33,547 bases of DNA from the IMG/VR virus record IMGVR_UViG_3300027784_000525, positions 1-33,547 of that record; one strand, 5' to 3'. A model generated the notes under the pieces. That model made no database searches. It had not been told where the DNA came from and saw only the letters and a list, made by a program, of their open reading frames with translations. The position numbers and the translations under genes are program-made. Source of the stretch: a virus. Shown in pieces: positions 8,067-24,053 of this stretch (position 1 is the first letter of the stretch; each line of letters begins with the position of its first letter).

Positions 8067-8809
8067 TGGACAGCGATGTTTTAAAGTTTAACGGCAAGCA
8101 AAGCGATGCCGAAGATCTGGGAATTGAACTGTGGCGGCGCTGGGATCGGCCTATCATTGCAGGAACACGCGATCATATAGGCGAAATTGTCGGGCGTGAT
8201 GGTGCGCTGGACTTTGGTTATGATCTGCAGGCTATAGAGATCCCTTGCGCCTTTATCGTGGCAGCAGATAGCGTGCAGGCGTTACGTTCGCAAGCGCGCG
8301 CGATCGCGCAGTGGCTGCACGTGGCAGAGCCTAAAGAATTGATATTCGGCGATGAACAGGGAAAATATTATATGGCAAGGCCGCTGGGCAGTGTTGATCT
8401 CACGGAGCTAATAACTACGGGCGAAGGTGAAGTTACTTTTTACGTGCCGGAAGGCTGCGCTTTTTCAGATACTACGAAAACGGCAGACGGTTATCCCGTG
8501 GATAACGAGGGAACGCTGGCGTGCCCGGTTATTATAGCTTATACAATGCCGGAAAATAGTTTTTATTTAACCCTTTACTTTTCAGATGAACCTCACACCT
8601 TCCAGTTACTGCACGATCTGCAGGCAGGCGATGAAGTTACGGTGGACACGGCGAAAAAGACGGTTACTGTTAACGGCACTGATGCCACGGCGGACATTAC
8701 TTTCAAGAGTGAATGGATTAAAATGCCTCCGGGCGAACATACCTGCTACGCGAACCACGAAGGCACGGACGGCGTGCCGACAATAACGTTCAGGGAGCGA
8801 TACTTATAA
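8066..8809 (+). CDS. Distal tail protein (Dit)
   Basis: 247 residues; the ATG overlaps the tape-measure stop and GGGAGGG lies ahead. The N-terminal domain shows RPIIAGTRDHIGEIVGRDGALDF-like spacing (I quote only part), with G-R-D-G in a beta hairpin and a region VAEPKELIFGDEQGKYYMAR followed by a strand typical of the Dit belt domain. The C-terminal domain (from about residue 155) is a beta sandwich with TVDTAKKTVTVNG. Dit forms the hub at the tail tip and always follows the tape measure in this phage class. Confidence 0.85.
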   Translation: MDSDVLKFNGKQSDAEDLGIELWRRWDRPIIAGTRDHIGEIVGRDGALDFGYDLQAIEIPCAFIVAADSVQALRSQARAIAQWLHVAEPKELIFGDEQGKYYMARPLGSVDLTELITTGEGEVTFYVPEGCAFSDTTKTADGYPVDNEGTLACPVIIAYTMPENSFYLTLYFSDEPHTFQLLHDLQAGDEVTVDTAKKTVTVNGTDATADITFKSEWIKMPPGEHTCYANHEGTDGVPTITFRERYL

Positions 8810-11322
8810 TGGAACAGTTGATTATTTTAAATAACAAGTTGCAAAGGCTGGCCGCGCTTGATCCTACAAAGGCGGATAATGCTGTGCTGCTCGAAAATTA
8901 TGATGATGGAACGCAGAACTTTAAGTTTGATTATAATAGTCTGGACACAGACGCCTTTAACTTGGGCGATGATAACGAGCAAGATCAAGAGGCGGCAGCG
9001 GTGGTGATACCGGATCCGGAAAAACCGGGCGAGAGCGAGTGGTTATGCTTTGCGCTGCGCGATGTTAAACATATCAAGCAGCCGGACAGGCAGATGATAC
9101 AGGTGCGCGGCGAAGGGCTTTATAACGAGCTGGCCGATGGGCCAGTCCGCACTTATGATCTGACTAATGCTACGCCTGCCACGGCGATCGGCGAAGCGCT
9201 GGAAGGCACGCGCTGGGAGCTGGGCACGGTGGCGGAGAGCCTTAGTTCCGAAACCGTGGATCTCTATGCTGCGGACGAAAACCCTTTAAAGTTTTTAAGG
9301 CGGATCGAACGCAAGTTTAACGCGCGCCTGCGCTTCCACGTGGACGATTATTATACTGCAATCACGGACTTTAAAGTGGATCTGCTTGAGCCGGAAGATG
9401 ACTTTGCAGGGCTACGCTTTGAGTTTGGATCGAACCTTGAGGGCCTTGATATTAAAGTGGATTATGACGGCATTAAGACTGCGCTTTATGGCTTTGCAGC
9501 AGGCACGGCGATGGATCTTGACTTTGAAGATCAGGAAGTTAAGGCGCCGGAAAAAATGGATTTCGCAGGGATTTGGTATGATACTGATGCCGGGGATCCC
9601 TTTGACAAAACTTTGGGTCAACGTTACGTGGGTGATGATGAAGCGAGGGAAGCTTATGGCATTTATGACCCTGCGACAAATGAATGGCGGCACAGGTTCG
9701 GCGTGCATGAAAGCGAAGCGGAAACGGAAGAAGATCTGCTGCTGGCGACTTATCAAGTGCTGCAGCGTAAAAAACAGCCGCGCGTTACAGTGGACGCAGC
9801 TGTTTCCGATTTGGAAAAGGCTGCGCTCGTTGATATTAATACTGGCGATCTGGTGCAGCTGGATCACATGAAGATCAGGCTGGGCAATATATGCCACGTT
9901 ATAGCGCGGCACAAAGGGATCTTCGCTGCGATGGAAATGCGCATTACAGAGGTTCAGCGAAACCTTAAGGAGCCGCAAAAAACTCAAGTTCGGCTGGGTG
10001 ATCCTGTTCCGCTGGGCAGCGATCAATTTTTAGGGCTGGCGGATCACATGGAAACGCAAGCGCGGCAGCGCAGGCGTTTAGACCGGGGCCGCGGCGCGCA
10101 GACAATAACGATCGCGAGCGAAGATACAAGCCGGAACCCGTTTTATGCTGATATAGTTGTGCCTGCCGGGGCGGAGAATTTTCAGGATTACTTTGAAAAG
10201 GCCATGCTGCAGCTGGGTGATGGTAACGGAAAAATAGTAATATTGGAAGGCGATTATGTTTATGATATGGAAATGCTCGTGGGCTACTGGCAGGAAGAAC
10301 CGCCGCCTGCTGCAGCGGTGAACGTTACTGTGGCAGGGCAGGGCAGCGGCACACGCCTGATTGAAAAAGACGGGATAGATGATAACTGCCGGGGAATGGT
10401 TTGCATGGACGCCGACAATGTTAACATTCACGATCTGGCGCTTATAGGCGGCACTCCGATAAGTGGTTATCATAATGGTATTCACTTTATCGGCGGCGTG
10501 GACGCCGAGTTTAGAAACCTGCACGTCAGCGGATACTCGCACAGTGGGATCCTGCTGTGGAACAGCAGTAAAACAAAGGCGATAAACTGTGTCTGTCGCG
10601 ATAACGGCGGCAGTGGTATTAATTGTCATACAAGTATGAACTTCATTGAGGATCATGGTTATATCAGCGAGCTTATTGTTACCGGGAACCAGTGCTACGG
10701 CAACGAGCAGGCTGGGATCCGTTTTGATACAGCGGAGAACTGCGTCTGCAGCAGTAATTCTGCTAATGGCAACGGCAAACAAGGGATCAGCTTAAGCGGC
10801 GCCATTAACTGCACGATCAGCGGAAACACTTGTAACAATTCAGCAGAAGGCGATAGCAGTGGGATCGGGCTGTTTTTCTATAGCGCGCGGAACAACGTTA
10901 CCGGCAATACTTGTCAAAACAACGGCAATCAGGGCATTTATTTTAATTGTGAAGCGCTCGAAAATAACTTTGAAGGCAATATTTGCCGCGAAAACACGCG
11001 ATCCGGGATCTATATGCACGCGATTGAAAAAGCTGGCGAAGATCTGGATCCTGCTTATAAGCCGCTGCGAAATAACATTTTAGGCAACGAGTGCAACGAT
11101 AACGATCAGCAAGGGATCGTTATTTGGGGCGATGAAAACAACGTGCAGAATAACAAGTGTTATGATAACGATCAATATGGGATCTTTGTCTGTGGGCAAG
11201 CAGACCCTGCTGTTTATGCCACGGATAACCTTGTTACTAATAACGACCTAATGGGTAACGCGGTCGGCGGTATCAAAGACGATGGCATAGGAACCGTTAC
11301 CACGGCAGGGAACCGTTCTTAA
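8809..11322 (+). CDS. Tail-associated protein (Tal-like) with right-handed beta-helix C-terminus
   Basis: 837 residues, one-base overlap with Dit. Residues 1 to about 400 match the tail-tip protein layout (LFALRDVKHIKQPDRQ-type strands, FLRRIERKFNARLRF, and a late TGDLVQLDHMKIR). Residues about 440-837 are a parallel beta-helix of NosD/pectate-lyase type: short turns repeat N-x-C-x2-N-x-G patterns such as NGIHFIGG, NCTISGNTC, NNVTGNTCQNNGNQGIYF and NNVQNNKCYDNDQYGIF. Such helices in tail tips often bind or cleave surface polysaccharide. No catalytic residues are obvious, so depolymerase activity is only possible. Confidence 0.85.
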   Translation: MEQLIILNNKLQRLAALDPTKADNAVLLENYDDGTQNFKFDYNSLDTDAFNLGDDNEQDQEAAAVVIPDPEKPGESEWLCFALRDVKHIKQPDRQMIQVRGEGLYNELADGPVRTYDLTNATPATAIGEALEGTRWELGTVAESLSSETVDLYAADENPLKFLRRIERKFNARLRFHVDDYYTAITDFKVDLLEPEDDFAGLRFEFGSNLEGLDIKVDYDGIKTALYGFAAGTAMDLDFEDQEVKAPEKMDFAGIWYDTDAGDPFDKTLGQRYVGDDEAREAYGIYDPATNEWRHRFGVHESEAETEEDLLLATYQVLQRKKQPRVTVDAAVSDLEKAALVDINTGDLVQLDHMKIRLGNICHVIARHKGIFAAMEMRITEVQRNLKEPQKTQVRLGDPVPLGSDQFLGLADHMETQARQRRRLDRGRGAQTITIASEDTSRNPFYADIVVPAGAENFQDYFEKAMLQLGDGNGKIVILEGDYVYDMEMLVGYWQEEPPPAAAVNVTVAGQGSGTRLIEKDGIDDNCRGMVCMDADNVNIHDLALIGGTPISGYHNGIHFIGGVDAEFRNLHVSGYSHSGILLWNSSKTKAINCVCRDNGGSGINCHTSMNFIEDHGYISELIVTGNQCYGNEQAGIRFDTAENCVCSSNSANGNGKQGISLSGAINCTISGNTCNNSAEGDSSGIGLFFYSARNNVTGNTCQNNGNQGIYFNCEALENNFEGNICRENTRSGIYMHAIEKAGEDLDPAYKPLRNNILGNECNDNDQQGIVIWGDENNVQNNKCYDNDQYGIFVCGQADPAVYATDNLVTNNDLMGNAVGGIKDDGIGTVTTAGNRS

Positions 11323-21116: not shown

Positions 21117-21164
21117 AAATAAAGTTTGGCCTCCCTTCCTGTAACACACTTCCCTTCTCCTGTG

Positions 21165-21195
21165 GCTGTGCAGCAATGCTGCACAGCTTTTTTTT
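21165..21195 (+). terminator. Strong Rho-independent terminator of the late operon
   Basis: GCTGTGCAGC (21165-21174), loop AAT, GCTGCACAGC (21178-21187), then eight T residues. A 10-bp perfect GC-rich stem plus T8 is a textbook terminator. It separates late genes from the hammerhead module. Confidence 0.95.
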
Positions 21196-21345: not shown

Positions 21346-21374
21346 TTTACAAAGGGTCTGATGCATGGTATTAT
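21346..21374 (+). promoter_or_regulatory. Near-consensus extended -10 promoter of the ncRNA/hammerhead module
   Basis: TTTACA at 21346-21351 (5 of 6), a 17-base spacer, and TATTAT at 21369-21374 (5 of 6) preceded by TGG (21366-21368), an extended -10 element. Transcription should start near 21381. Confidence 0.8.
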
Positions 21375-21380
21375 ATAGTT

Positions 21381-21737
21381 GCAAGAGGGAAAGGGAAAAC
21401 AGCAAGACCGAACCTTGAAAACAGAATAGCAGCTGCAAGCCGGGAAACCTTAAGGGCCGGGCACAGCCAAAAGAAAGAGGCTGACGGGAGCAGGAACCGC
21501 GAAACACTGGCAAGGTAAAACGAAGGGCAGCTGCAAGACTGGCGAAAGCCACGGGTGGCGCCGATATAACGCTGGGGAGCCGAGAGGCTTTAAAAGGATA
21601 ACACGGCGCAGGAGCTGCAAGAAGGAGCAGGCGAGGATGGCGGTGGATAGGTAAACAAGACCCCGAAGAAGGCGGCCATTGCAAGGCCGCTTAAGCGAAG
21701 CCGAAATAACCGGGCAGCGGAAACGCTGCCCGTTATA
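21381..21737 (+). ncRNA. Large structured non-coding RNA, ended by hammerhead cleavage
   Basis: No plus-strand ORF with a ribosome site lies between the promoter and 21806. Compact helices with loops typical of folded RNA are visible: CAGCC/GGCTG (21464-21483), TGGC-GAAA-GCCA (21540-21551), AGCC-GAGA-GGCT (21578-21589), and GCGGCC/GGCCGC around ATTGCAA (21672-21690). Stem III of the ribozyme is also capped by GAAA (21720-21723). The motif GCTGCAAG recurs at 21432, 21530 and 21614 (GTTGCAAG at 21378). The 3' end would be set by ribozyme cleavage after 21737. Size and style recall the ornate phage RNAs (GOLLD, ROOL), but I cannot match it to a known class. Confidence 0.7.
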
Positions 21738-21778
21738 CGCTGCAGACTGACCGCTGCGGTGCTGATGAGGCAGGTTAA
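21691..21778 (+). ncRNA. Hammerhead ribozyme A (type II)
   Basis: Core elements in type II order: GCC (21700-21702), GAAA (21703-21706), stem III (TAAC...GGGCAGCG, GAAA loop, CGCTGCCC-GTTA, one bulged C) to 21735, U21736 pairing with A21706, and A21737 as the cleavage nucleotide. Stem I is CGCTGCAG (21738-21745) with CTGCGGTG (21754-21761), eight pairs of which two are wobbles. CTGATGA (21762-21768) and GGC (21769-21771) close stem II with GCC. TTAA at 21691 and 21775 could extend stem II. Every catalytic-core base is present. It sits between the ncRNA and the ribosome site of the amidoligase gene. Confidence 0.93.
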
Positions 21779-21805: not shown

Positions 21806-22636
21806 ATGAAAAAGGAACAGGTTAACGGATTTAACACGGAGCGGACTTTTGGAGTAGAGATTGAGTTTTTAGGACACGCGAACGCAGTGGCCGCAAAGTG
21901 CCGGGCAATGGGCATTGATTGCAGAGTTGAAAACTATAACCACGAAAACCGCGAATGGTGGAAAATAGTTACTGACGCAAGTGTTAACGGAGCCGGAGAA
22001 GGGCTGGAGATTGTGAGCCCGATATTGCACGGCCGCGAAGGGCTGGAAGCAGTTAAAACAGTTTGTGCAGCGTTGGAAGCAGCAGGCGCGACAGTAAATG
22101 TAACATGCGGCCTGCACGTGCATCACGGAGCAGAGGACTTTAACGTTAACAGTTTTAAAAACATTACTTTACTTTATACCCGATACGAAAAAACGATTGA
22201 CAGCCTGATGCCGAAAAGCCGGCGCGGCAGTAATAACACTTACTGCGCAAGTTTGTTTGACTTGCAGCACGCGACCTTTAGCAGCGCGCAGCGCTTTATG
22301 GAATGGATTTACAATGCACGCGATACCGACCAGTTGCTTGACTTTTTTAGCAGGCGCTTTTTAAAGCTGAACCTGCGCGCTTACCGGGCGCACTCGACAG
22401 TAGAGTTTAGGCAGCACAGCGGAACGACAGAAGCCGCGAAAGTTGTTAACTGGATTTTGTTAACGCAAGCAATGGTTAACAAAGCGACAGAGCGCACGGT
22501 GCTGAACCCGGCGAACGTTGACGACAGCTGGAAAAGCTTTAAAAAAGCAGTGGCCTTGACGGGCTACCGCGGAGCGACAGAAGAACTGCAGGCGGTGCAG
22601 CGGTTTTATGGCAAGCGCCGGAAGCAGTTAGCATAA
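21806..22636 (+). CDS. Amidoligase-family enzyme
   Basis: 276 residues behind AAAGGAGC. Motifs follow the glutamine-synthetase-like amidoligase family: FGVEIEF near the N-terminus (metal-binding acidic residues), WKIVTDASVNG, GLEIVSPIL, CGLHVHHG (histidines of the active site), MPKSRRGSNNTYC, and HSTVEFRQHSGTT with N-W-I following. Such enzymes are predicted to form amide or peptide bonds using ATP, for example adding glutamate or other amines to proteins or peptides. The gene lies between hammerheads A and B and contains no GATC, unlike most of the phage. A gamma-glutamylcyclotransferase gene 3 kb downstream is a natural functional partner. Confidence 0.88.
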   Translation: MKKEQVNGFNTERTFGVEIEFLGHANAVAAKCRAMGIDCRVENYNHENREWWKIVTDASVNGAGEGLEIVSPILHGREGLEAVKTVCAALEAAGATVNVTCGLHVHHGAEDFNVNSFKNITLLYTRYEKTIDSLMPKSRRGSNNTYCASLFDLQHATFSSAQRFMEWIYNARDTDQLLDFFSRRFLKLNLRAYRAHSTVEFRQHSGTTEAAKVVNWILLTQAMVNKATERTVLNPANVDDSWKSFKKAVALTGYRGATEELQAVQRFYGKRRKQLA

Positions 22637-22638
22637 CA

Positions 22639-22707
22639 GCCGAAACCGGGCGGAGCAGCAGCGGCCTGCCCGGTATGCAAAGGGTGCCGCCTTTGCACTG
22701 ATGAGGC
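22639..22707 (+). ncRNA. Hammerhead ribozyme B (type II)
   Basis: It starts two bases after the amidoligase stop. GCC (22639-22641) and GAAA (22642-22645) lead into stem III CCGGGC/GCCCGG (22646-22651 with 22668-22673), then U22674 and A22675, with cleavage after A22675. Stem I is TGCAAAGG (22676-22683) with CCTTTGCA (22690-22697), eight Watson-Crick pairs. CTGATGA lies at 22698-22704 and GGC at 22705-22707, closing stem II with GCC. The next ribosome site (CGGGAGG) lies about 25 bases downstream, so a cleaved mRNA keeps its translation signal. Confidence 0.95.
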
Positions 22708-22738
22708 AGGCAGCAAAAAAAAACGGGAGGCGTTAAAT

Positions 22739-23176
22739 ATGGAACTGCAGGGCAAGCTTACCAGCAAGGAAGCGCAGTGGACTTATTTGTTAGCAGGGCG
22801 CGCAGTGGTTACGCTGGAAAATAGCGAAACCGGGAACCGCTTTACTTACAAAGTGAAAGGCTTGGAGAAAGACGATGGAACAATGCTTTATTTTGTGAGT
22901 GTTTTAAGTGGCCACGATAATGACAGCGATTATGCTTATATGGGAACCATATTTGCAGACGGGCGCTTTAAGCTTACAAAGAAAAGCCGGATCAGCGCAG
23001 AAGCTGCGAGCTACAAAGCTTTTTACTGGCTCTACGAAATGCTTAAGCAGGGCAAAGAATTGCCGGAGCAGGTTAACTTTTACCATGCCGGAACCTGCGG
23101 ACGCTGTGGCCGGACTTTAACGGTGCCGGAGAGCATAGAAACTGGGATGGGGCCGCACTGCAGGAACGCGGCCTGA
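22739..23176 (+). CDS. Zinc-finger protein, DUF6011-like
   Basis: 145 residues behind CGGGAGG. The C-terminal ~30 residues hold CGRCGRTLTVPESIETGMGP followed by HC, a C-x2-C ... G.GP.C zinc-binding pattern seen in DUF6011-type phage proteins. The N-terminal ~100 residues have a beta-rich pattern (GNRFTYKVKG, TMLYFVSVLSG, DYAYMGTIFADGRF) and then a helix. Function is unknown; these domains are frequent in phage early operons and may bind nucleic acid. Confidence 0.7.
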   Translation: MELQGKLTSKEAQWTYLLAGRAVVTLENSETGNRFTYKVKGLEKDDGTMLYFVSVLSGHDNDSDYAYMGTIFADGRFKLTKKSRISAEAASYKAFYWLYEMLKQGKELPEQVNFYHAGTCGRCGRTLTVPESIETGMGPHCRNAA

Positions 23177-23205: not shown

Positions 23206-23511
23206 ATGGAAAAAATTTATGACCCTAATAAAAGGCGGATTGAAGTTAACTTTAAGGCTTACCGGGCGGATTACATTGCTGACAACGTGCAGCCCGGCGG
23301 CAATGTTTACGTTTACTTTAACAAAGAAGCTTACATTAAGGAAAAACATGCGCTGATAGCGCGCCTGCAGCATGACCCCGGTGTTGAGGTTAGAGGCTGG
23401 GATCAGGAACTTGAGTGGTATTTAGTGGTTATAAGTGATCACAGGCTGCGACAGCGTGGCGTGAATGAAAGTGCTTGGAGCAGGGCGCAAGAACATAACC
23501 TGTTAGGTTAA
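23206..23511 (+). CDS. Hypothetical early protein
   Basis: 101 residues with CGGGAGG ahead. It is basic, with a mixed alpha/beta pattern (NVYVYFNKEAYIKEKHALIA, YLVVISDHRLRQRGV). I do not recognise a family. It lies in a group of three small genes between hammerheads B and C and would share their processed mRNA. It holds two of the three GATC sites in this module. Confidence 0.7.
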   Translation: MEKIYDPNKRRIEVNFKAYRADYIADNVQPGGNVYVYFNKEAYIKEKHALIARLQHDPGVEVRGWDQELEWYLVVISDHRLRQRGVNESAWSRAQEHNLLG

Positions 23512-23532: not shown

Positions 23533-23766
23533 ATGATTAAAATTACATTAGAAACTGGCAAAACATACGAGGCTGAAACTTACGAAAGGCTTATAACAGT
23601 GCTGGCGCGAACCAGTTATTTACAGGAAAGCAAGTTTGACTATATGGCGAACGTGGCGAAGCGCTGCAATATATGGAACGGCGCTGAAATTGAATACCAT
23701 AACGCCGAAAGCTTTATTAAGGAGTTGCAGCGCGTGGGCGTGGTGCAGGAGCTATGGGAAGAATAA
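23533..23766 (+). CDS. Hypothetical early protein
   Basis: 77 residues with CAGGAGG ahead. It begins with a beta hairpin (IKITLETGKTYEAETYE) and ends in a short helical region (YHNAESFIKELQRVGVVQEL). No family is recognised. Its stop codon (23764-23766) touches the first pairing base of hammerhead C, so the 3' end of this mRNA would be the ribozyme product. Confidence 0.75.
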   Translation: MIKITLETGKTYEAETYERLITVLARTSYLQESKFDYMANVAKRCNIWNGAEIEYHNAESFIKELQRVGVVQELWEE

Positions 23767-23827
23767 GCTGAAACCGGGCCGAGTGCCCGGTATGCTGGGA
23801 ACTGGGCGAACCAGCACTGATGAAGCT
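23766..23827 (+). ncRNA. Hammerhead ribozyme C (type II)
   Basis: AGCT (23766-23769) pairs with AGCT (23824-23827) as stem II. GAAA (23770-23773) leads to stem III CCGGGC, loop CGAGT, GCCCGG (23774-23790), then U23791 and A23792; cleavage is after A23792. Stem I is TGCTGG (23793-23798) with CCAGCA (23811-23816) around a 12-base loop. CTGATGA lies at 23817-23823. Stem sequences differ from copies A and B, but the core is identical, so the fold is kept by covariation. It directly follows a stop codon and lies ahead of the AAAGGAGG of the next gene. Confidence 0.95.
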
Positions 23828-23858: not shown

Positions 23859-24053
23859 ATGAACGGACAAAAAGGATACCACGAAAAGAATTTTAAGGTA
23901 ACATTTACCACGGAGCAGGAAGTTTGGGCGCGTTTACGGGACATGCTTTACCATTATAAGGACGGAACCTTGACAGTTAACGAAAAATTAAAGCCGAAAA
24001 TGCAAGAGCTTGAGGAATTTTTAATTGACAACGATTGCGAATACTTTTGGTAA
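23859..24053 (+). CDS. Hypothetical early protein
   Basis: 64 residues, first gene after hammerhead C, with AAAGGAGG ahead. The sequence is charged with two likely helices (TTEQEVWARLRDMLYHY, EKLKPKMQELEEFLIDNDCE). No family is recognised. It is the last gene of the GATC-poor module; GATC becomes frequent again from 24074. Confidence 0.7.
   Translation: MNGQKGYHEKNFKVTFTTEQEVWARLRDMLYHYKDGTLTVNEKLKPKMQELEEFLIDNDCEYFW

Follow-up and report, generated by a model that had tools for sequence, protein, structure and literature searches.

The window analysed here, a 33,547-nucleotide stretch of viral DNA (IMG/VR record IMGVR_UViG_3300027784_000525), contains at positions 22639–22707 a complete type II hammerhead ribozyme (ribozyme B): its core is intact, all three stems are present and loop I forms a pseudoknot with the 3′ tail. 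Taken as a whole, our explanation, which we consider likely to be correct, is that this RNA cuts itself after A22675 and is selected mainly for the 3′ end of the upstream, amidoligase message; this end is probably the main selected effect. Sequence, topology, pseudoknot, conservation and compensation were observed directly, as was the placement of such ribozymes across many phages.

Identity and structure of ribozyme B

A search with Rfam 15 matched Hammerhead_II (RF02276) at 22638–22719 on the plus strand with 41.3 bits (E = 2.7e-5 for the window), the gathering score of this family being 37; matches to other families under their own gathering scores, e.g. RsaF and P10, were set aside as chance. 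A motif scanner demanding the core, H17, the A15.1–U16.1 pair and three stems returned 22639–22707, with 8 bp in stem I, 3 bp in stem II (GCC/GGC) and A22675 as H17. The same scanner counted three type II motifs in the window, where dinucleotide shuffles averaged 0.03 each, and a relaxed scan gave 17 matches in 1.0 Mb of loci against 0 in 3.0 Mb of shuffles. When compared with the type II core consensus used (CUGANGA ... GAA A ... U-H17), ribozyme B fits the invariant core throughout (CUGAUGA, GAA, the A22645–U22674 pair and A22675 as H17), and its permutation is that of type II, with loops closing stems I and III and stem II open. Stem III has seven strong pairs (the A-U pair plus CCGGGC/GCCCGG) and is extendable to nine. 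The fold energy was not significantly better than that of shuffles (z = −1.6) and is not significant evidence by itself, so the identity was drawn from core, topology, pseudoknot and conservation. By each sequence and structure test applied, ribozyme B is a hammerhead.

Most of this agrees with the original prediction, made from the letters alone, of a hammerhead behind the amidoligase gene: both the Rfam score and the motif scan recover it, its start two bases after the TAA is exact, and the core is intact as described. The eight-pair stem I and the GCC/GGC stem II stood, but stem III, given as six pairs, has seven strong ones, and the loop I/tail pseudoknot, a UGCC/GGCA pairing, had been absent. 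Predicted cuts were placed by the hammerhead rule, with cleavage 3′ of H17 (Table 1). The best reading of the sequence remains that cleavage here would fix both where the amidoligase message ends and where the next one begins.

Table 1. Coordinates of ribozyme B and of the elements around it in the window
Feature	Position	Strand	Basis
Intrinsic-terminator-like hairpin and T run, after previous operon	21164..21195	+	
Promoter-like TTTACA-N17-TATTAT, common to L004	21346..21374	+	
Conserved non-coding leader, promoter to ribozyme A	21381..21699	+	81% identical to L004
Hammerhead ribozyme A, type II, 5′ of amidoligase gene	21700..21771	+	Motif scan
Amidoligase gene (Amidoligase_2), stop TAA 22634-22636	21806..22636	+	Pfam PF12224, E 1.5e-42; phrog_2443
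Hammerhead ribozyme B, type II	22639..22707	+	RF02276, 41.3 bits; motif scan
Ribozyme B stem II	22639-22641/22705-22707	+	Motif scan
Ribozyme B GAA	22642-22644	+	Motif scan
Ribozyme B stem III	22645-22653/22666-22674	+	Motif scan
Ribozyme B predicted cleavage site	22675..22676 (A22675 (H17)/U22676)	+	Hammerhead rule on motif scan
Ribozyme B stem I	22676-22683/22690-22697	+	Motif scan
Ribozyme B loop I/3′ tail pseudoknot	22685..22712	+	UGCC 22685-22688 with GGCA 22709-22712
Ribozyme B core CUGAUGA	22698-22704	+	Motif scan
Downstream gene, C-terminal DUF6011	22739..23176	+	PF19474, phrog_20259
Small gene with no family match, between ribozymes B and C	23206..23511	+	Open reading frame, family searches
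Small gene, stop codon touching ribozyme C	23533..23766	+	Open reading frame
Hammerhead ribozyme C, type II	23766..23827	+	Motif scan; RF02276, 32 bits, below gathering
Small gene 3′ of ribozyme C	23859..24053	+	Open reading frame

Related phages and genomic setting

An amidoligase search returned one close relative (L004, 77% identical), and about 80 more distant viral loci were reached using a two-sequence amidoligase alignment as the query. A hammerhead lies 2–3 nt after the amidoligase stop codon in L004, L006, L007, L008, L009 and L010, the amidoligases of which are about 44–77% identical to that of the window; the distance was tabulated for five of the six, the L007 ribozyme being the same as that of L006. 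RF02276 scored above the cut-off in L004 and L006–L009, and the L010 ribozyme, with a weak stem II, was found by motif only. Of 13 tabulated stem pairs, 10 vary across four diverged orthologues and all 13 remain paired; it is in stems I and III that the sequence differs between related phages with pairing kept. For the pseudoknot, a swap test was carried out over 11 distinct ribozymes, in which loop I scored 7.5 against its own tail and 5.48 ± 0.43 against swapped tails, a value as high as that observed being reached in 0 of 3000 permutations. The related-phage comparison proposed with the original prediction thus turned out in its favour, with a hammerhead at the same position in six contigs and stems I and III compensated. 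Among the closest relatives, none was seen to keep the genes and lose the core without compensation. That ribozyme B is a hammerhead-like relic without function in the window's phage is scarcely credible, given that core, topology, pseudoknot and position are kept at 44% protein identity, with compensated stems.

Three hammerheads were found in the window, three in L004 and two in each of L006–L010. Several ribozymes have one extra base between the CUGAUGA core and stem II (e.g. CUGAUGA-U-GGC), among them those at 8246–8315 and 10893–10964 of L130 (the record of L004) and others in L006, L007 and L008. A match to RF02276 was present in 5 of 50 contigs with related amidoligases, these being the five closest relatives only, and a tie between the ribozyme and amidoligases generally was rejected on this count. 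As the family is missing from the other amidoligase records, the trait follows the phage clade and not the enzyme, and the amidoligase does not require the ribozyme. A DNA similarity search with the ribozyme region in annotated phages gave no match.

The elements of the window are ordered as terminator-like hairpin, promoter, leader, ribozyme A and amidoligase gene; ribozyme B follows, then three small genes, then ribozyme C with further genes behind it. Within the region, the promoter-like sequence scores highest as a promoter. Ribozyme A (predicted cut after A21737, pseudoknot UGACC/GGUUA) scores 21.2 bits with RF02276, under the gathering cut-off of 37, and has a homologue at the corresponding place in L004. 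Ribozyme C begins on the final A of a TAA, with a predicted cut after A23792 and a UGGGC/GCCCG pseudoknot. A Shine-Dalgarno sequence, GGGAGG, is found near 22725 for the gene downstream of ribozyme B. No plus-strand terminator-like site was found at any of the three ribozyme junctions; since there is a promoter-like sequence at 21346–21374 with a terminator-like hairpin before it, these sequence signals suggest that ribozymes A, B and C are probably part of one transcript.

For the leader, no Rfam match was obtained, nor any homologue besides L004 among the loci compared. It is more conserved (window 21381–21699; L004 4570–4893) than most coding windows there and folds better than shuffles (z = −3.3). 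The leader contains CCTTGAAAACAGAATAG, which we take to be boxA-like, resembling the rRNA boxA antitermination elements of Bacillota; the predicted cut of ribozyme A would fall just behind this element.

In the proposed mechanism, nucleotides 22639–22712 of the early phage transcript would fold and self-cut after A22675, 39 nt past the stop codon of the amidoligase gene. This would leave the amidoligase message with the stem III hairpin and a 2′,3′-cyclic phosphate at its 3′ end, and the next message would start 63 nt upstream of its AUG, with a 5′-OH and the hairpin of stem I. Ribozymes A, B and C would in this way split the transcript of one promoter into gene-sized pieces, and a stable hairpin about 7 nt past the stop codon would provide a defined, probably exonuclease-resistant end where there is no terminator-like site.

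Phage hammerheads in IMG/VR and the RNA end proposed to be under selection

Hammerheads were collected from IMG/VR with three DNA patterns fixed on particular stems, classed by permutation and clustered, which gave, among the matches listed, at least 85 of type I, at least 120 of type II and at least 62 of type III. Genes were taken as mechanical open reading frames of 60 amino acids or more. Among the matches listed, a stop codon fell at −3 to +8 relative to the 5′ edge of the ribozyme for 45% of type I, 63% of type II and 6.5% of type III, and another 38% of type I overlapped a stop codon; for random noncoding positions, the value for −3 to +8 was 4.9%. Chance contact was rejected, random, noncoding-random and shifted positions giving 0–7.6%. 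Type III ribozymes, among the matches listed, were mostly 9–50 nt after the stop (74%).

Close contact with stop codons could also reflect ribosome-gated cutting. Given the extent of the ribosome footprint, a ribosome terminating on the TAA would cover stem II and GAAA, so that cleavage would take place only between rounds of translation and the fate of the message would follow translation. The ribozyme B core begins 5 nt past the stop codon, which would suit such gating, as would the type II proportion among the matches listed and the type I ribozymes whose core UGA doubles as the stop codon (distance −10); the distance of type III from the stop codon, among the matches listed, argues against it, and we regard gating as quite improbable.

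In several type I hammerheads (e.g. L261, L265, L266 and L301), the stop of the upstream open reading frame either is the UGA of the core CUGAUGA or lies within stem I or the loop of stem II. In one record, L150 (IMGVR_UViG_3300038412_000035), a single strand carries nine type II hammerheads within 8.5 kb, several of them directly after stop codons.

The permutations were then compared for hairpins. A GC hairpin ending at most 4 nt from the 5′ edge was found, among the matches listed, in 0% of type I, 3% of type II and 71% of type III, with shuffled controls at 4%, 7% and 17%, respectively; with a slightly wider limit, an upstream hairpin was counted in 44/62 of type III versus 4/205 of the others listed (Fisher p = 5e-31). 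After a type I or II cut the upstream RNA ends in the stem III hairpin, whereas after a type III cut it does not, so the extra type III hairpin makes up the difference. For the matches listed, the 3′-terminal 45 nt of the predicted upstream product have folding energies of −16.9 (type I), −16.0 (type II) and −16.4 kcal/mol (type III); for the 45 nt at the start of the predicted downstream product the corresponding values are −3.3, −13.8 and −15.6 kcal/mol, with random 45-mers at −8.4 kcal/mol. The median stop-to-hairpin distance was 7 nt in both types II and III among the matches listed. Because types I and II hold the hairpin by construction, type III is the informative case, and this cross-permutation evidence favours the 3′ end as the selected product. 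Selection for a 3′ end capped by a hairpin shortly past the stop codon would account for this most simply; the notion that compact genomes alone press ribozymes against stop codons is weakened, as compaction alone would not add the upstream hairpin of type III.

If the downstream message were instead the selected product, its 5′-OH and 5′ hairpin would shield it from 5′-end-dependent decay and expose the ribosome site. The next starts are indeed close to the ribozymes (median 21–26 nt among the matches listed), and for the hammerhead of halovirus HF2 the 5′ end of an in vivo transcript has been located no more than 3 nt from the cut site (PMC3088659). However, type I leaves no 5′ hairpin, as the downstream energies of the listed matches indicate, and a downstream hairpin is rarely added (5% in type I versus 2% in shuffles, among the matches listed), while type III adds an upstream one; we consider selection for the downstream message unlikely.

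Returning to the upstream 3′ end, we lean somewhat towards a general form, in which phage hammerheads of all three permutations would be makers of mRNA 3′ ends, positioned so that the cut leaves a stable hairpin shortly past a stop codon, with type III supplying it as an added upstream hairpin, and in which ribozyme B would be a terminator substitute that trims the transcript but does not stop RNA polymerase. PMC6155905 describes the role of phage hammerheads as an open question. Stop-codon placement, together with a hairpin special to the permutation with a bare 3′ end, leads to a direct prediction of which RNA end is selected; no report of the placement rule was found in the open-licence literature searched.

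Comparison with known systems

Hammerheads flanking phage genes were described by Perreault et al. in 2011 (PMC3088659), and ribozyme B belongs to this class. The RF02276 type II hammerheads reported there share with it the core, an open and short stem II, a phage genome and the loop I/3′-tail pseudoknot, which is typical of type II, and no difference in fold was seen. A term search of the main text of PMC3088659 found neither the stop-codon rule nor the type III upstream hairpin ("stop codon" occurring 0 times), and an amidoligase is not mentioned as a hammerhead neighbour in the literature searched. The phage PaP3, named by Perreault et al. as having an active variant (PMC3088659), gave no hammerhead motif with the motif scanner. 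Theta ribozymes of gut phages are likewise a self-cleaving RNA class in phage transcripts but have an HDV-like fold and are linked to tRNAs (PMC10879173), whereas ribozyme B is a hammerhead.

The clustered hammerheads of Clostridium scindens, Azorhizobium caulinodans and Agrobacterium tumefaciens ardA, like those of the window, separate genes of one transcript (PMC3088659), the window having three same-strand hammerheads that flank genes of one predicted transcript. Processing into operon- or gene-length mRNAs was proposed by Perreault et al. (PMC3088659).

The HF2 genome (AF222060) encodes at 37516–38880 an RtcB RNA ligase, an enzyme that might in principle ligate the products of hammerhead cleavage. 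In a reading built on such joining, neighbouring ribozymes would excise gene-length RNAs with 2′,3′-cyclic phosphate and 5′-OH ends, and RtcB would join these into circles. The predicted ends would be RtcB substrates and HF2 has the enzyme, but no RtcB was found in the window or in the six related records, which may be fragments, and circular and spliced products were sought by Perreault et al. and none detected (PMC3088659); we hold circle formation to be very improbable.

A parallel in position is the HHphage of haloviruses HF1 and HF2, which, like ribozyme B, is of type II and sits between two genes, immediately behind the stop codon of the first. In the deposited HF2 annotation, a coding sequence ends at 10290, the type II hammerhead spans 10292–10359 and the next coding sequence follows at 10371, making HF2 an independent case of a type II hammerhead just after a stop codon. 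HHphage has a variant core with an insertion and was studied for its activity in high salt, whereas the core of ribozyme B is that of the consensus.
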